The notes under the pieces: generated by a model
Databases searched by the model: none
Seen by the model: only the letters and a program-made list of their open reading frames with translations
Told to the model about the DNA's origin: nothing
Source of the DNA: a virus
DNA length: 24,308 nucleotides
Virus record (IMG/VR): IMGVR_UViG_3300017757_000152
Coordinates: 1 to 24,308 of that record
Strand: one strand, 5' to 3'
Made by a program: the position numbers and the translations under genes
Shown here: in pieces, positions 1,627 to 20,208 of the stretch
Position numbering within the stretch: position 1 is the stretch's first letter
Layout: each line of letters starts with the position of its first letter

Positions 1627-1637
1627 TATATTTATAC
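1627..1637 (+). promoter_or_regulatory. putative late promoter of the tmRNA
   Basis: The sequence TATATTTATAC matches a motif seen upstream of four other transcription blocks here (about TATATTTATTA at 1976, 8148, 13697 and 17406). It ends right where the paired region of the tmRNA acceptor piece begins (1638-1640), the spacing expected if it is a -10-type element with transcription starting about 12 nt from its first base. Promoter function is an inference. Confidence 0.4.
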
Positions 1638-1938
1638 ACGGTCGCTAGTACTTATATTAGCTGCTTATTTGGACCCGGGTTCGATTCCCGGCATCTCCAC
1701 TAAAAATACACGATATGGGGATGACCGGCTTTGACAGTAAGTAAGGGTATGAGGAAGACCAACGCAGTAACCGGCAAACAGGTTAACACGACGATAGCAA
1801 GTATATTTGCTTCATTATCAGCTATTAGATCTCTTTCACAAGAGACTATAGTTGCTAAAGAGCAAGTATTTGCAATGGCTGCCTAGTTAGGTACCCGCGT
1901 CACACGGTAAACAAGGATCATGTCGTCAAAATCCTAGG
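1638..1938 (+). ncRNA. ssrA: circularly permuted (two-piece) tmRNA
   Basis: tmRNA rescues stalled ribosomes by acting as alanyl-tRNA and then as a short mRNA for a degradation tag. Here the order is permuted. The acceptor piece comes first: GGAC, then T-stem CCGGG (1675-1679), T-loop TTCGATT, CCCGG (1687-1691), then CATCTCC (1692-1698) and discriminator A (1699). The coding piece starts at 1717 with GGGGATG, which pairs over 7 bp with CATCTCC, including a G3:U pair as required by alanyl-tRNA synthetase. It is followed by the D-like segment CCGGCTTTGACAG. Helix 2 joins the two pieces: AGTAAGTA (1736-1743) with TGCTTATT (1662-1669), GTATGAG (1747-1753) with CTTATAT (1651-1657), and GACC (1757-1760) with GGTC (1640-1643). 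No T-arm exists after the tag, so the upstream one must be used. CCA is not encoded (ACTA). Only about 50 nt lie between the tag stop and the terminator, so there are probably fewer pseudoknots than in one-piece tmRNA. No SmpB gene is seen here. Confidence 0.9.
1854..1886 (+). other. tmRNA tag reading frame, peptide AKEQVFAMAA
   Basis: The resume codon GCT (Ala) follows TATAGTT, matching the conserved UAGUY just upstream of tmRNA resume codons. Ten codons encode AKEQVFAMAA and end in TAG. The C-terminal hydrophobic-Ala-Ala ending is the classic protease degron. A stem TCTCTT/AAGAGA (1830-1845) lies 8 nt upstream, where pseudoknot 1 normally sits. The full tag would carry one more Ala from the charged tmRNA. 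Confidence 0.75.
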
Positions 1939-1963
1939 AGCAGCTCGAAAGAGCTGCTTTTTT
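1939..1963 (+). terminator. intrinsic terminator after the tmRNA
   Basis: A perfect 8-bp stem AGCAGCTC / GAGCTGCT closed by a stable GAAA tetraloop is followed by five more T. It lies immediately after the tmRNA coding piece and before the next promoter-like motif. It is the only clear rho-independent terminator I see in the window. Confidence 0.9.
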
Positions 1964-3694: not shown

Positions 3695-4171
3695 ATGAAA
3701 ATTAAAACAATTGCACTGCCTTCAATAAAAAAAAGGCCAAGAAAAAACAACACAGCTACTGATAATAGATTTATTAGATTAGAAAATAATAAACCTTATA
3801 TAGATCAAGCAGCTGTAGAACAAGTTTTATACTCTTACTCTACCCCCACAATTAGAATGCAAAATGCAAATAATGAACCAGGACCTAAACAATCAGGTAT
3901 TAAAAATTTTTTAAAAGATAGATTTAGAGGTTTTTCTTTTTTTGTAAAAGCCTTAAACCTAAACCCAGACACTAAAATTTCTGAAGAAAAAATAGAAAAG
4001 TACTTTAAAGATGCTGTTAGTGTTTATTTCTATAAAGAAAAGGGTAAATGGCCATCAAAACAAGAAGAAACAAATATGAATCCAGAAGACTTTGAGAACC
4101 CTGATGACATGCCCCCTATAGATAAAGGATTATCTGAATTAAACTTAAAAAATGAAGATTTTAAAATTTAA
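3695..4171 (+). CDS. hypothetical soluble protein
   Basis: A 158-aa protein with no signal peptide and no recognised family. The N-terminus is basic (MKIKTIALPSIKKRPRKNN), the centre holds FLKDRFRGFSFFVKALNL and a helical segment (SEEKIEKYFKDAVSVYFYKEKGKWPSK), and the C-terminus is acidic (NPEDFENPDDMPPIDKG). It starts 3 nt after the thioredoxin-like gene. It is the one protein in this block that appears to stay in the cytoplasm. Confidence 0.6.
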   Translation: MKIKTIALPSIKKRPRKNNTATDNRFIRLENNKPYIDQAAVEQVLYSYSTPTIRMQNANNEPGPKQSGIKNFLKDRFRGFSFFVKALNLNPDTKISEEKIEKYFKDAVSVYFYKEKGKWPSKQEETNMNPEDFENPDDMPPIDKGLSELNLKNEDFKI

Positions 4172-4184
4172 AAAATATACGCGT

Positions 4185-7100
4185 ATGAAAAAGTTATTAT
4201 TACTATTATTATTACCCCTCTTTATATTCTCCCAAGATAGTTGGGTAAATGTTCAATTTGATTTTGATGGTTATGCAGATGAAGTCACATGGAATTTATA
4301 CAATGGAACAGACTCAATACCAGTAGCTTCCGGGGGAGGTTATGAAAATGGGCAGGCAGAAGCATTTCACCAAATAATTTTAGATTCAGGTGATTATACG
4401 TTTGAATTATTAGATTCTTGGGGGGATGGTTTAGGTTATCCACCAGATAATTTAGGTTGGTGTTTAGTTTCTAATGTATGTCAAGATACCTTATTTTATG
4501 CATCAGGTAATTATGGTGCAATGTTAATTGAATCATTAACAATTGCCCCCTGTGCTCCACCAGACCCTCCAGTAATTGGTTGTATGGATGAAAATGCACT
4601 TAACTATGATGAATCAGCTGATGTTAATGATGAATTCTTATGTGAATATCCAGCTTGTGATGGATTAGGTGAATGGTTTGTAGATCAAACTTGTGATGGA
4701 GGTTCTGCTCTTCTTTATTATAATTGGGGAGCTAATCCAGATAATCCTAATTGTAATGTAATTCAAATAACTTATGGAGGCCAAGGCACAAATACTTATA
4801 GTTATACTACAGATATTGATAATGGTATATTTGGTATTTATGCAGGTAATGGTCAAATGCCTCCTAACTGGGAAGAAGAATTTTCATTCCAAGCAACATT
4901 TGCAGACAGTACACAATCCGAAACAATATTATATACACCATACCCATGTACACAAGGTTGTACAGATGAGAATGCTCCTAATTACAACCCATGGGCAACT
5001 GTAGACGATGGTTCATGTGGGGGCCAATCATGTGATGTAGGATATACTCCTTTAACAATAGACATAACATTAGACAATTGGCCTGGAGAGACAGGTTGGT
5101 CATTTGTTAGTGGTGATGGTTCTATGGAAATTACAGATGGAACATATACTTTTCAAGATGTAGGACAAACTTATACATATGATGTTTGTGCAATGGAAGG
5201 AGGTTTTGAATTTATTATAACAGATACTTACGGTGATGGTATGGCAGGTTCAACTACTGGTGGGACAATGGATGGTGAAGTCGTTATAACTGGATGTGAT
5301 GGAGATACAATTACTACATTATCATCAGGAACATGGGTTAATGCAGCTCAAGAAAATGTTGGTGTAGGTTTTGGAGAAGTAGGTTATTCAACTTGGTTAG
5401 AAGTTCCTATATGTGGTGGTGAAGAAGCTGTTGAAGGATGTACAGATAGTGACTATCAAGAATTTAATTCAAGTGCAAATGTAGATGATGGCTCTTGTTT
5501 AAATGAACATATATTTGGTTGTACAAATGAAAATGCATTTAATTATAATCCAGATGCAACACAAATGGAAATATATCCTAATTGTAATTATGAATTATGG
5601 ATTGGTGATGCAGGGGCAGATGGATGGGGTAATTCATTTTTAGGGGTTGTTCAAGGAGATAATATGTGGTCATTTACAATGGGGCCAGGACAATATGAAC
5701 AAACATTTCCCATATGGTTAGAAACAGATAAGCCAGTCACATTTTATTATTTTGCAGTTGGGGGTGCACAAACTCCACCAGAAGAAGTAGAATTTCAAAC
5801 ATTGCATAATTCATTTAAATTAACTAATGCAAATGGAGTTATATTATTATATGAAGGATGGAATCCTTTTGCAGACAATGGTCAAGGTGCACTTCAACCA
5901 TTCCAACCACCATTTTTTCAAACATATTCAGCAATGCCATTTTGTGGTACACTTTGTATTCCAACAGTTTTAGGTTGCACAGATAGTACAGCATATAATT
6001 ATAATGAAGATGCCAATACTGATGATGGTAATTGTATTCCCGTTGTTGAAGGTTGTACAAATGATTTAGCATTTAATTATAATGAAAACGCTAATACGGA
6101 TAATGGTTCTTGTGTTTCAGTAATTGTTGGTTGTATGGATGAAGAGGCCTTTAACTATAATGAAGAGGCAAATGTTGATGATCCTGATTCATGTATTCCA
6201 GTAATTGAGGGTTGTATGGATGATACTCAATTTAATTATAACCAAGCAGCCAATACGGATAATGGATCTTGTGAGCCTTTTATTTATGGTTGTACAGACC
6301 CAACAGCTACAAATTATAATGAAGAAGCCAACACAGATAATTTTAGTTGTATACCGTTTATTTATGGGTGTACTGATCCAGCTGCATTCAATTATAATGT
6401 TTTAGCCAACACAGATGATGATACATGTATAGCAGTCGTATTAGGTTGTACAGATACTTTAGCCATTAACACTGATACATTAGCTAATACAAACTTTGGT
6501 TGTATTTATCCTATTTTAGGTTGCACTGACCCAACATCATTCAACTATGATGTTAATGCAAACACTGATGATGGTAGTTGTGAAGCTGTAGTTATTGGAT
6601 GTACCGACCCAACAGCACTAAATACAGATACATTAGCAAATACAAATTCTGGTTGTATATACCCCTCATTAGGATGTACAGACCCTGATGCTTTTAATTA
6701 TGATGTTAATGCAAATGTAGATGATGGTTCATGTGAAGAAGTAATTATTGGATGCACAGACCCAACAGCATTAAACACAGATACACTTGCTAACACTAAT
6801 TCAGGTTGTATTTATCCTATTTTAGGTTGTACTGATCCAGCTGCTTTTAACTACAATGTGTTAGCTAATACAAATGATAATTCATGTATTGAAGTTGTTT
6901 TAGGTTGTACAGATACTTTAGCTATAAACACAGATACTCTTGCAAATACTAATTTTGGTTGTATTTATCCTGTTTTAGGTTGTACAGATCCTACAATGTT
7001 TAATTATGAAGTCAATGCAAATACAGACAATGGATCATGTATTCCATTTATTTATGGTTGTACAGATCCAACTATGTTTAATTACGATATCAATGCAAAT

Positions 7101-8129
7101 ACAGATAATGGTAATTGTATAGCTTATGTATATGGTTGTACAGATAGTACAGCGTTTAATTATGACCCATTAGCTAATACAGATAATGGATCATGTATTG
7201 CAGTTATAGAGGGATGTACTAATCCTATTGCTTTAAATTACAATGTAGATGCAAATGTAGATGATTTTAGCTGCATATTACCTATTTATGGTTGTACTGA
7301 TAGTACTGCATTAAACTATGATGAGAATGCTAATGTAGACAACGGCTCATGTATTGCAGTTGTTGAAGGATGTACAGACCCAACTGCTCTTAATTATAAT
7401 GAATTAGCTAACGTAGATGACTTCTCTTGTATACTACCCATTTATGGTTGTACTGATCCAGAAGCATTCAATTATAATGAATTAGCTAATATTGATAATG
7501 ATTCTTGTATACCCGTAGTTTATGGTTGTACTGACGAAACAGCATTTAACTACAATTCAGAAGCAAACACAGAAGACTTTTCATGTATAGAAGTCGTTTA
7601 TGGATGTACAGATGAAAATTCATTTAACTACGACGAAAATGCTAATACGGATAATGGGTCATGTATTGAAATATTAGAGGGCTGTACAGACATAAATGCT
7701 TACAATTATGATGGAAATGCAAACACAGACGATAATTCATGTGAATATGATGCAGAATGTAGTGGGGGGCCAGGAGTCCCATATTGGTTACCTAATGAAT
7801 GTTTTGAATGGGTAATATCAATTGACACAGAATGTTGTACAGGTGATTGGAATTCTTATTGTATTGAATTATATAATTATTGTGACTTAGGGTGGCCTAT
7901 TGATTTAGAAGAATTTTCTTCTGAATTATTAATATACCCTAACCCAGTAATTGACATATTAAATTCAAATAAAGAAATTGATATAAAAGTATATGATATG
8001 ATGGGTAAATTAGTTATTTTTAAAGAAAAAACAAATGAAATAGACATGACTAACTTACCAAGTGGTGTTTATAATTTAAATATTACTTACAATAACCAAA
8101 ATATAAACAATAAAATTATAAAACAATAA
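4185..8129 (+). CDS. giant secreted Cys-rich repeat protein with T9SS type A sorting domain
   Basis: A 1314-aa protein. The start at 4185 is chosen because it gives a clean signal peptide (MKKLLLLLLLPLFIFSQ); an in-frame Met 33 nt earlier would put charged residues in front and overlap the previous gene. After the signal come beta-rich modules with Ca-loop-like motifs DSWGDGL (about residue 77) and DTYGDGM (about 347), and four scattered Cys repeats. A tandem array of about 23 repeats GCTDxxAFNYxxxANTDDGSC follows (residues 597-1186), then a Cys-rich WLPNECFEW/CCTGDW segment. The C-terminal domain (residues 1248-1314) has IYPNPVIDIL, KVYDMMGKLV, DMTNLPSGVYNL and terminal KIIKQ: the T9SS type A sorting signal that anchors proteins to, or releases them from, the Bacteroidetes surface. 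It should pass through Sec and then the host type IX system. Function is unknown; surface display, adhesion or host-coat modification are possibilities. Confidence 0.9.
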   Translation: MKKLLLLLLLPLFIFSQDSWVNVQFDFDGYADEVTWNLYNGTDSIPVASGGGYENGQAEAFHQIILDSGDYTFELLDSWGDGLGYPPDNLGWCLVSNVCQDTLFYASGNYGAMLIESLTIAPCAPPDPPVIGCMDENALNYDESADVNDEFLCEYPACDGLGEWFVDQTCDGGSALLYYNWGANPDNPNCNVIQITYGGQGTNTYSYTTDIDNGIFGIYAGNGQMPPNWEEEFSFQATFADSTQSETILYTPYPCTQGCTDENAPNYNPWATVDDGSCGGQSCDVGYTPLTIDITLDNWPGETGWSFVSGDGSMEITDGTYTFQDVGQTYTYDVCAMEGGFEFIITDTYGDGMAGSTTGGTMDGEVVITGCDGDTITTLSSGTWVNAAQENVGVGFGEVGYSTWLEVPICGGEEAVEGCTDSDYQEFNSSANVDDGSCLNEHIFGCTNENAFNYNPDATQMEIYPNCNYELWIGDAGADGWGNSFLGVVQGDNMWSFTMGPGQYEQTFPIWLETDKPVTFYYFAVGGAQTPPEEVEFQTLHNSFKLTNANGVILLYEGWNPFADNGQGALQPFQPPFFQTYSAMPFCGTLCIPTVLGCTDSTAYNYNEDANTDDGNCIPVVEGCTNDLAFNYNENANTDNGSCVSVIVGCMDEEAFNYNEEANVDDPDSCIPVIEGCMDDTQFNYNQAANTDNGSCEPFIYGCTDPTATNYNEEANTDNFSCIPFIYGCTDPAAFNYNVLANTDDDTCIAVVLGCTDTLAINTDTLANTNFGCIYPILGCTDPTSFNYDVNANTDDGSCEAVVIGCTDPTALNTDTLANTNSGCIYPSLGCTDPDAFNYDVNANVDDGSCEEVIIGCTDPTALNTDTLANTNSGCIYPILGCTDPAAFNYNVLANTNDNSCIEVVLGCTDTLAINTDTLANTNFGCIYPVLGCTDPTMFNYEVNANTDNGSCIPFIYGCTDPTMFNYDINANTDNGNCIAYVYGCTDSTAFNYDPLANTDNGSCIAVIEGCTNPIALNYNVDANVDDFSCILPIYGCTDSTALNYDENANVDNGSCIAVVEGCTDPTALNYNELANVDDFSCILPIYGCTDPEAFNYNELANIDNDSCIPVVYGCTDETAFNYNSEANTEDFSCIEVVYGCTDENSFNYDENANTDNGSCIEILEGCTDINAYNYDGNANTDDNSCEYDAECSGGPGVPYWLPNECFEWVISIDTECCTGDWNSYCIELYNYCDLGWPIDLEEFSSELLIYPNPVIDILNSNKEIDIKVYDMMGKLVIFKEKTNEIDMTNLPSGVYNLNITYNNQNINNKIIKQ
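5973..7742 (+). repeat. tandem coding repeats, about 23 copies of 20-22 aa plus linker
   Basis: The period is about 75-80 nt at the DNA level (20-22-aa core plus a 4-6-aa linker). Each copy reads GCTDxxAxNYxxxANxDxxSC, with two Cys bracketing an acidic, Asn-rich loop that looks suited to metal binding and one disulfide per unit. Within copies 6-13 of the array a second subtype (LNTDTLANTNSGCIYP) alternates with the main type, giving a two-unit higher-order repeat. Synonymous codons differ a lot between copies, so the array is not a fresh expansion. Confidence 0.9.
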
Positions 8130-18315: not shown

Positions 18316-20208
18316 ATGGCTTATACAAAGATTACAAATAAAAATCAAGATAAAGATGTTAAATATTTAAATAAAGATTATAACTCTTTTAAAGATCAGT
18401 TAATAGAATTTGCTGAAATTTACTTTCCTAATAACTTTAATGACTTTAGTGAAGGTAATCCTGCTATGATGTTTTTAGAAATGTCTGCCTATGTAGGAGA
18501 TGTTTTATCTTTTTACACTGATACACAAATGAGAGAAAGCTTTTTACTTTTAGCTCAAGAAGAAGAAAATTTATATAACTTAGCCTATACTATGGGTTAC
18601 AAACCAAAATCAACTACAGCAGCTAGTACTGATTTAGAAGTTTTTCATTTAGTTCCCTCTATATTTCATGATAATGCTTATCAACCAGATTTTGATTATG
18701 CTTTAACTATAAAAGAAAACTCAACATTTTCTTCAACAGACGGTCCTATTTTTTACTTAACAGAACCTATTAGATTTAGTTATTCTTCTTCAATAGACCC
18801 TACAGATACTAGTATCTACCAATATGATAATTCTAGTAACCCTGAATATTTTTTATTAAAGAAAAAAGTAAAAGCAATATCTGGAAACATAATATCCCAA
18901 ACCTTTCCTATAGGATCACCTGAAAGATTTAAAACTCTTACTATCTTTAATCCTAACATAATATCTATTGAATCTATAACAGACGATGCAGGAAATACAT
19001 GGTCAGAAGTACCTTATTTAGCTCAAGATACAATTTTTGAAGAAGTAGAAAATACAGGAGCTAATGATCCTGAACTACATCAATATAACCAACAAACACC
19101 CTATCTTTTAAAAATAAAAAAGGTACCAAAAAGATTTGTATCTCGTTTTAAATCAAGAGGAGAATTAGAAATCCAATTTGGACCTGGATCTACAGATAAT
19201 TCTGACCCTATAATAACACCAGATCCTAATAATATAGGATTAGGAATAAAAGATGGTAGAAGCAAATTAGATACTGCTTATGACCCTTCTAACTTTATGT
19301 ACACTAAAGCATACGGAGAATCCCCCGCAAATACAACACTAACAGTTAAGTATCTTGTAGGGGGAGGAATATCATCAAATGTAAATTCAAACACTATCAC
19401 TCTAGTAGACAATATAATTACTACTCCCAAACCCAACTTATCTGTAGCTATGTCTAATTTTGTAAAGGGATCAGTAGCTTCTAATAACCCAGAATCCGCT
19501 AGAGGAGGGGGAGACGGAGATAGTATAGAAGAGATTAGAATGAATGCGATGGCTAACTTCTCAGCTCAACAAAGAACAGTAACAAAAGATGATTATTTAA
19601 TTAGAACTTTATCTATGCCCCCTCGATTTGGAAGTGTAGCAAAAGCTTACATAACACAGGATGATCAAATTACCCCTATGACTAATGAGCCTAATCGTAT
19701 ACCTAATCCTTTAGCCCTTAACCTATATACTTTAGGATACGATGCAAATAAAAGCTTAACTAATCTAAATAATGCTACAAAAACAAATTTAAGAACATAT
19801 TTAGAACAATACAGAATGCTAACAGATGCTGTTAATATTAAAAACGGCTTTGTTGTTAATTTTGAAGTAGAATTTGACATAACAGTTTTTAAAAACTATA
19901 ACAACCAAGAAGTATTAGTAAAATGCATAGCAGAATTAAAAGATTACTTTAATATAGATAAATGGCAAATAAATCAACCAATAATTATATCTGAAGTAGA
20001 AAACTTAATAGCAGGAATACAGGGGGTACAAACATTAGAAAAAATACAATTTAGAAACAAAACAGGAACTTCTTTAGGATATTCTCAGTATAAATATGAT
20101 TTTCATGGAGCTACTAGAAAAAGAGTAATATACCCCTCATTAGATCCTAGCATATTTGAAATAAAATACCCTAACACAGACATTAAAGGACGAGTAACAA
20201 CATATTAA
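18316..20208 (+). CDS. gp6-like baseplate wedge protein (baseplate J family)
   Basis: A 630-aa protein, close to T4 gp6 in length. The N-terminus carries the conserved block YLNKDYNSFKDQLIEFAEIYFPNNFNDF, GNPAMMFLEMSAYVGDVLSFYTD and LYNLAYTMGYKPKS. The C-terminal half has the baseplate-J pattern ARGGGDGDSIEEIRMNAMANFSAQQRTVTKDDYLIRTLSMPPRFGSVAKAYI, followed by a domain starting near LRTYLEQYRMLTDAVNIKNGFVVNFEVEFDI. gp6 dimers link neighbouring wedges into the inner baseplate ring. It sits between gp25 and a beta-rich wedge or fibre protein, with 2-nt and 1-nt gaps. Confidence 0.9.
   Translation: MAYTKITNKNQDKDVKYLNKDYNSFKDQLIEFAEIYFPNNFNDFSEGNPAMMFLEMSAYVGDVLSFYTDTQMRESFLLLAQEEENLYNLAYTMGYKPKSTTAASTDLEVFHLVPSIFHDNAYQPDFDYALTIKENSTFSSTDGPIFYLTEPIRFSYSSSIDPTDTSIYQYDNSSNPEYFLLKKKVKAISGNIISQTFPIGSPERFKTLTIFNPNIISIESITDDAGNTWSEVPYLAQDTIFEEVENTGANDPELHQYNQQTPYLLKIKKVPKRFVSRFKSRGELEIQFGPGSTDNSDPIITPDPNNIGLGIKDGRSKLDTAYDPSNFMYTKAYGESPANTTLTVKYLVGGGISSNVNSNTITLVDNIITTPKPNLSVAMSNFVKGSVASNNPESARGGGDGDSIEEIRMNAMANFSAQQRTVTKDDYLIRTLSMPPRFGSVAKAYITQDDQITPMTNEPNRIPNPLALNLYTLGYDANKSLTNLNNATKTNLRTYLEQYRMLTDAVNIKNGFVVNFEVEFDITVFKNYNNQEVLVKCIAELKDYFNIDKWQINQPIIISEVENLIAGIQGVQTLEKIQFRNKTGTSLGYSQYKYDFHGATRKRVIYPSLDPSIFEIKYPNTDIKGRVTTY

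Follow-up and report, generated by a model that had tools for sequence, protein, structure and literature searches.

Two-piece tmRNAs are usually drawn with two pseudoknots, PK1 and PK2, flanking the tag (PMC3985003), and in Rfam they are represented by a general permuted model (RF04321) and by models for the alpha (RF01849), beta (RF01850) and cyano (RF01851) clades. The permuted form has already been published from phages, where 53 of 133 unique tmRNA structures were two-piece, 50 of these 53 being marine or aquatic (PMC9004378). Among the marine phages with a permuted gene are Melnitz, a phage of OM43, and the pelagimyophages, whose tmRNAs are reported to be alphaproteobacterial in type and to lie under a glutamine riboswitch (PMC9004378). 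The 2025 paper on the tmRNA database, which holds 79 phage sequences, gives 10 residues as the commonest tag length (PMC11915505). In the searchable literature we found no description of a permuted lineage from Bacteroidetes phages.

The gene described here is a member of a family of tmRNAs from Bacteroidetes phages that has been little described. It shares with the tmRNAs of RF04321 the gene order, a helix 2 that joins the two pieces, the G3:U70 pair, a tag ending in AA plus a stop codon, a pseudoknot after the tag and a score above the cut-off of the model. It departs from them in having no room for PK1, in resuming at a glycine codon and in carrying a hairpin within the tag frame, which brings the tag to 37 residues; these features, and not the permutation of a phage tmRNA, are what is new. 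Unlike the Melnitz and pelagimyophage genes, it has Bacteroidetes-type signatures and a promoter motif of its own, and an Rfam search of the whole stretch of DNA analysed returned no riboswitch over cut-off.

The gene lies in an IMG/VR virus record from a marine phage, probably of Bacteroidetes; the whole 24,308-base stretch that was analysed is referred to as the window. An initial annotation, made from the letters of the window, had proposed a phage-encoded circularly permuted tmRNA, and this is borne out by three lines of evidence: positions 1640-1886 match RF04321 (tmRNA_permuted) from end to end (78 bits, E 1.2e-13, cut-off 47), ARAGORN calls the permuted form (tmRNA*) at 1608-1977, and the helices covary. 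The fold z-score of the tmRNA is -4.0. That annotation had also expected covariance models to return a permuted architecture, which the general model did; the clade-specific models did not, the top match in the tmRNA clan (beta_tmRNA, 48.6 bits) falling far below its cut-off of 84 and no alpha or cyano match surfacing in the clan search. A one-piece tmRNA with its own downstream T-arm was looked for with RF00023 and a T-loop scan. The one-piece model gave nothing over cut-off in the window, and no perfect match to a second T-loop occurs anywhere in it, in agreement with the earlier remark that no T-arm follows the tag.

In this gene the T-arm and 3' acceptor strand are encoded upstream of the 5' acceptor strand. 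The acceptor piece (1640-1699, plus strand), delimited by the RF04321 alignment and by covariation, contains the 3' strands of helix 2, the T-arm (1675-1691), the acceptor strand CATCTCC (1692-1698) and the discriminator A1699; the CCA end is absent from the gene, in which CTCCA is followed by CT. An intervening segment of 17 nt (1700-1716, plus strand) separates it from the coding piece and would be removed if the transcript is processed like other permuted tmRNAs. The 5' end of the coding piece (1717-1760, plus strand) comprises GGGGATG (1717-1723), a D-arm with TTGACA (1731-1736) and the 5' strands of helix 2, ending in GACC (1757-1760). The two acceptor strands pair as first described, with G1719:U1696 forming the alanine identity pair G3:U70, a pair kept in 22 of the 23 relatives (the window counted among them) and replaced by U-A in the remaining one. 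The length of the spacer had likewise been given correctly, but its shortness is not unusual: other spacers found are 5-35 nt long, with a few of at least 89 nt, and within the family most measure 16-22 nt, those of L263 and L272 being 89-91 nt.

Helix 2 is formed between the pieces by the three segments that the initial annotation had pointed out (1662-1669/1736-1743, 1651-1657/1747-1753 and 1640-1643/1757-1760), which are 100, 100 and 91% paired across relatives. Covariation was counted over 47 pairs in an alignment of 23 family members (A1). Standard pairs fill 95.1% of cells, compared with 86.4% in shuffles and 35-46% when the partner strand is slid by 1-3 columns, and in 19 pairs both partners change, compared with 12.2 in shuffles (0 of 500 as high). 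Such changes occur in helix 2 across the pieces (ten pairs, over helices 1-3), in the T-stem and in the pseudoknot.

Helix 2 and the resume codon are only 12 nt apart, which leaves no room for PK1; none fits, and the single pseudoknot is placed after the tag (1904-1935, plus strand; stem 1 1904-1909/1921-1926, stem 2 1914-1918/1931-1935). All five pairs of its second stem change on both sides among the 23 relatives. A hairpin resembling helix 5 encloses the stop codon (1880-1893, plus strand; 1880-1884/1889-1893), with 95.7% of cells paired and one pair changed on both sides. An intrinsic terminator, AGGAGCAGCTCGAAAGAGCTGCTTTT TTATT, follows at 1936-1961 (plus strand). The permuted gene had thus been placed rightly at the outset, and its extent now grows by the 37-residue tag, the pseudoknot, which had gone unnoticed, and the terminator.

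Just upstream of the start of helix 2 stands ATATTTAT (1628-1635, plus strand), a likely phage promoter motif that extends to TATTTATA at 1629-1636. The same ATATTTAT occurs at window positions 1628, 1977, 8149, 13698 and 17407, in four of the five cases 23-30 nt before an ORF and in the fifth before the tmRNA. The motif stands no more than 45 nt before the ORF start in 16 of 64 cases in the related phage G044, 23 of 62 in the related phage G045 and 4 of 13 in the window (1/64, 2/62 and 0/13, respectively, for its reverse complement), and it also precedes other tmRNAs of the family. The recurrence suggests that ATATTTAT probably represents a class of phage promoter. With this motif on one side and the terminator on the other, the tmRNA therefore looks like a transcription unit of its own.

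The tag frame, GKQVNTTIASIFASLSAIRSLSQETIVAKEQVFAMAA followed by TAG (1773-1886, plus strand), was placed by comparison with relatives carrying short tags and with relatives carrying tags of 37 residues. From the resume codon GGC (1773-1775) it is open for 37 residues to TAG at 1884-1886 and ends in VFAMAA, with Ala-Ala before the stop codon. In most relatives the tag resumes at GGC and is 10 residues long (GEQVELAMAA, for example), and the resume context TAAC(T/C)GGC is common to these and the window at an equal distance from helix 2; in a sister phage (G015, baseplate 70% identical) the permuted gene has the short tag DETVNMAMAA. The tags of L056, L240, L241, L263, L268 and L272 match the window's in length with diverged sequence, L063 has a 36-residue tag with a different insert, and the sequence of L269 is cut near its end. 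Despite their divergence, the long-tag members keep a fixed frame length, with no stop or indel. Tags known from other tmRNAs are up to about 35 residues long. The tag reported by ARAGORN for the window, AKEQVFAMAA (10 residues), was rejected as the full tag, since the relatives identify it as the C-terminal end of the 37-residue frame. ARAGORN also reports no gene in two siblings, L240 and L241, and shortens the tag in others; because the hairpin within the tag frame makes the standard gene finder miss or shorten the gene in this way, the spread of hairpin-extended tags is probably underestimated.

The additional length amounts to about 81 nt, or 27 extra codons, and folds into a hairpin within the frame (1797-1873, plus strand; 1797-1804/1866-1873, 1809-1817/1856-1863, 1821-1825/1848-1852 and 1830-1835/1840-1845), with a fold z-score of -4.3 in the window. 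Across six sequences, 95.8% of its cells are paired, compared with 33-51% in slid controls, and eight pairs are changed on both sides, compared with 3.2 in shuffles (0/500). A covarying hairpin in the extra sequence argues that the tag was lengthened by a structured insert in frame, which is an unusual solution. A covariance model of the insert, run on 539 kb of sequence from phages and prophages, matched only tmRNA tags, the L063 type included at 43 bits. We rejected the idea of a dispersed mobile element, as no further copies were present in the 539 kb of phage DNA. The tag peptide gave no evidence of purifying selection (dN/dS about 0.5-1 or more, with no third-codon-position excess in the extension), and an amphipathic helix in the long tag was dismissed, as it scored no better than shuffles.

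A Bacteroidetes host, assumed in the initial annotation, is likely from the protein content of the window. The product of 4152-8129, of 1325 residues, carries a C-terminal sorting domain of type IX secretion (T9SS, Pfam PF18962), and the baseplate protein (18316-20208) is closest to that of the Baltic Sea Flavobacterium phage immuto (48.5% identical over its full length), with a Microcystis phage a close second at 45.6%; neither of these two phages has a tmRNA over cut-off. Among sequenced phages we found no DNA relatives of the window, no full-length relatives of its tmRNA and no relative of the 1325-residue protein. The latter also contains many GCTDPTAFNYNxxANTDDGSC repeats, here in a phage.

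A degenerate pattern of T-arm-acceptor followed by GGGG hits at least 119 stretches in IMG/VR, and those tested were mostly ARAGORN permuted tmRNAs, with some tRNA pairs; a family-specific pattern yields 53 stretches, and the family comparison set comprises 31 distinct tRNA-like sequences. IMG/VR is also rich in permuted phage tmRNAs whose tags are of other types. Bacteroidetes themselves normally have one-piece tmRNA, as the initial annotation had stated: 141 of 148 Bacteroidota genomes contain one over cut-off. RF04321 exceeds its cut-off in one of 395 genomes (G289); the match sits in a phage-like region that encodes a DNA polymerase of phage type and numerous small ORFs, and G289 possesses a one-piece tmRNA of its own besides. 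In this survey the permuted form in Bacteroidota turned up only in phages, and the hosts keep the one-piece form, so that permutation and host type are separable. The match in G289 (L289:1410-1807, minus strand) and L021 represent a second permuted type, with tags GKVIQMNNAPVRLAA and GKVINLFSAPVRLAA; one copy, in a Bacteroidota phage-like region, adjoins tRNA-Met and tRNA-Ile.

Permuted tmRNAs annotated merely as SsrA are also present in Chryseobacterium phage MA9V-3 and in the crAss-like phages cr114_1, cr125_1, cr50_1 and cr10_1, all over the RF04321 cut-off except that of cr125_1, which falls below it. Like the window gene they are permuted and have a tag that starts with G; the crAss-like genes share the D-arm TTTGAC with the window family, and cr114_1 and cr125_1 have a similar AACGGC...ATGTCGTAAAA pseudoknot motif after the tag. 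They differ in their longer intervening segments, of 60-214 nt, and in tags of 13-17 residues and other sequence.

By knowledge of the family, trans-translation is the most likely function of the window tmRNA, and we consider it probable that the locus encodes a working two-piece tmRNA, transcribed from its own promoter to its own terminator, which is cut, charged and used to tag proteins with 37 residues. On this reading the transcript (about 1640-1961) would fold, and host RNase P and RNase Z would excise the 17-nt intervening segment; the host CCA-adding enzyme would complete the acceptor piece, and alanyl-tRNA synthetase, reading G3:U70, would charge it, helix 2 keeping it attached to the coding piece. 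No SmpB gene was found in 44 related phage records, some of 133-153 kb, and host SmpB is therefore presumably used. With it and EF-Tu, the tmRNA would enter ribosomes stalled during infection, translation would resume at GGC1773, and the added tag ending in VFAMAA would send the nascent protein to host proteases; in the sub-clade with the in-frame hairpin, the ribosome would have to melt about 81 nt of structure during tag translation. The family may offer a way to test for phage reprogramming of the cellular degradation tag.

The same lack of a phage SmpB would suit a decoy, in which the phage RNA is charged and binds SmpB but mainly competes with the host tmRNA, as suggested for mycobacteriophage DS6A, and a phage tmRNA consisting only of the tRNA domain is reported to inhibit host tmRNA (PMC4131195, PMC11915505). 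A decoy, however, needs none of the tag frame, stop-codon hairpin and pseudoknot that are conserved over diverged members, and we regard this explanation as distinctly unlikely. It is also conceivable that the extra 27 codons are not translated as tag, the hairpin being bypassed or translation resuming downstream to give AKEQVFAMAA. Such an arrangement would agree with the strong structure of the insert and with the lack of a third-position excess, but the resume context, which short-tag relatives also have at an equal distance from helix 2, and an open frame of fixed length in every long-tag member, make it unlikely. That the sequence is decayed, or resembles a tmRNA by chance, is hardly credible: ARAGORN does overlook two siblings and shorten the tag elsewhere, but helices paired in 95.1% of cells over 23 relatives, with double changes, refute chance pairing or a pseudogene. 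A working two-piece tmRNA accordingly remains our preferred reading of the locus.

As to the origin of the permutation, for which the initial annotation had offered either an independent event or a transfer, the signatures favour a link to Bacteroidia, and the trees and a profile test do not. The Bacteroidia one-piece tmRNAs (RF00023) differ from the family in their standard gene order, the presence of PK1 and tags of 9-10 residues, but resemble it in the GGC resume codon (tags GENNYALAA etc.), the TTGACA D-arm and the acceptor and T-arm region. TTGACA is found throughout the family (31 of 31), in 31 of the 104 one-piece genes from Bacteroidota and in 4 of 64 other permuted phage genes, and a randomly drawn one-piece gene (L380) starts with GGGGATGACTGGTTTTGACAGCAAG, as does phage L269. 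Across 84,980 genomes, the only matches to the family's 3'-piece pattern are six one-piece tmRNAs of Bacteroidota and a single phage contig binned in the MAG of a marine archaeon. These six genes were left out of the fair trees because they had been chosen by the phage pattern itself; a grouping of the family with Bacteroidia one-piece genes has support of 95/73 with such pattern-selected relatives and is absent without them. It is very nearly an even call that the gene came instead by transfer from one of the known permuted lineages (those of Alphaproteobacteria, Betaproteobacteria or cyanobacteria), with another marine phage as a possible intermediary, and afterwards became adapted to hosts among the Bacteroidetes. 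The abundance of other permuted phage tmRNAs in the same collection is in keeping with transfer, as are AU tests on fair samples, in which a single clade uniting all permuted tRNA-like domains is not rejected (p 0.51 and 0.46), a class-profile test that places most family members nearer the permuted set but favours broad classes, and the position of beta_tmRNA as top clan match; the score of that match far under cut-off, the Bacteroidia signatures and the narrow distribution of the 3'-piece pattern argue against it. With trees of 100-127 columns unresolved and the profile test, biased though it is to broad classes, pointing the opposite way, independent permutation as an established fact was withdrawn. 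What we propose, tentatively and with somewhat more doubt than confidence, is that Bacteroidetes phages (marine myovirus-like, crAss-like and Chryseobacterium) may hold a fourth bacterial-type permuted lineage, one that arose in phages by permutation of a one-piece Bacteroidia gene, the hosts remaining one-piece, and that in one clade the in-frame hairpin would give the infected cell a second, phage-specified degradation tag of 37 residues.

Several intervening segments and flanks hold further RNAs. In L263 (4541-4930, minus strand), the 91-nt segment between the tmRNA halves contains an intact tRNA-Ala(TGC), and that of crAss-like cr114_1 (L440:644-1086) an intact tRNA-His; both fit cutting by tRNA-processing enzymes. 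A tRNA in this position was called unique when reported in a nominally archaeal permuted tmRNA (PMC11915505), which, because L263 holds a tRNA likewise, may come from a phage contig of the window's family. Separately, a phage contig with a permuted tmRNA of the family (L286, CALBOT010000027.1) is binned in a MAG of the archaeon Candidatus Nitrosopelagicus, a misbinning of a kind that can create false archaeal tmRNAs and that is relevant to the 'archaeal' permuted tmRNAs reported recently. The structured RNAs RAGATH-9 and RAGATH-22 are located no more than about 0.5 kb upstream of the crAss-like permuted tmRNAs (L442:489-657, L440:221-388 and L441:57-223), one of them reaching into the gene bounds given by ARAGORN.
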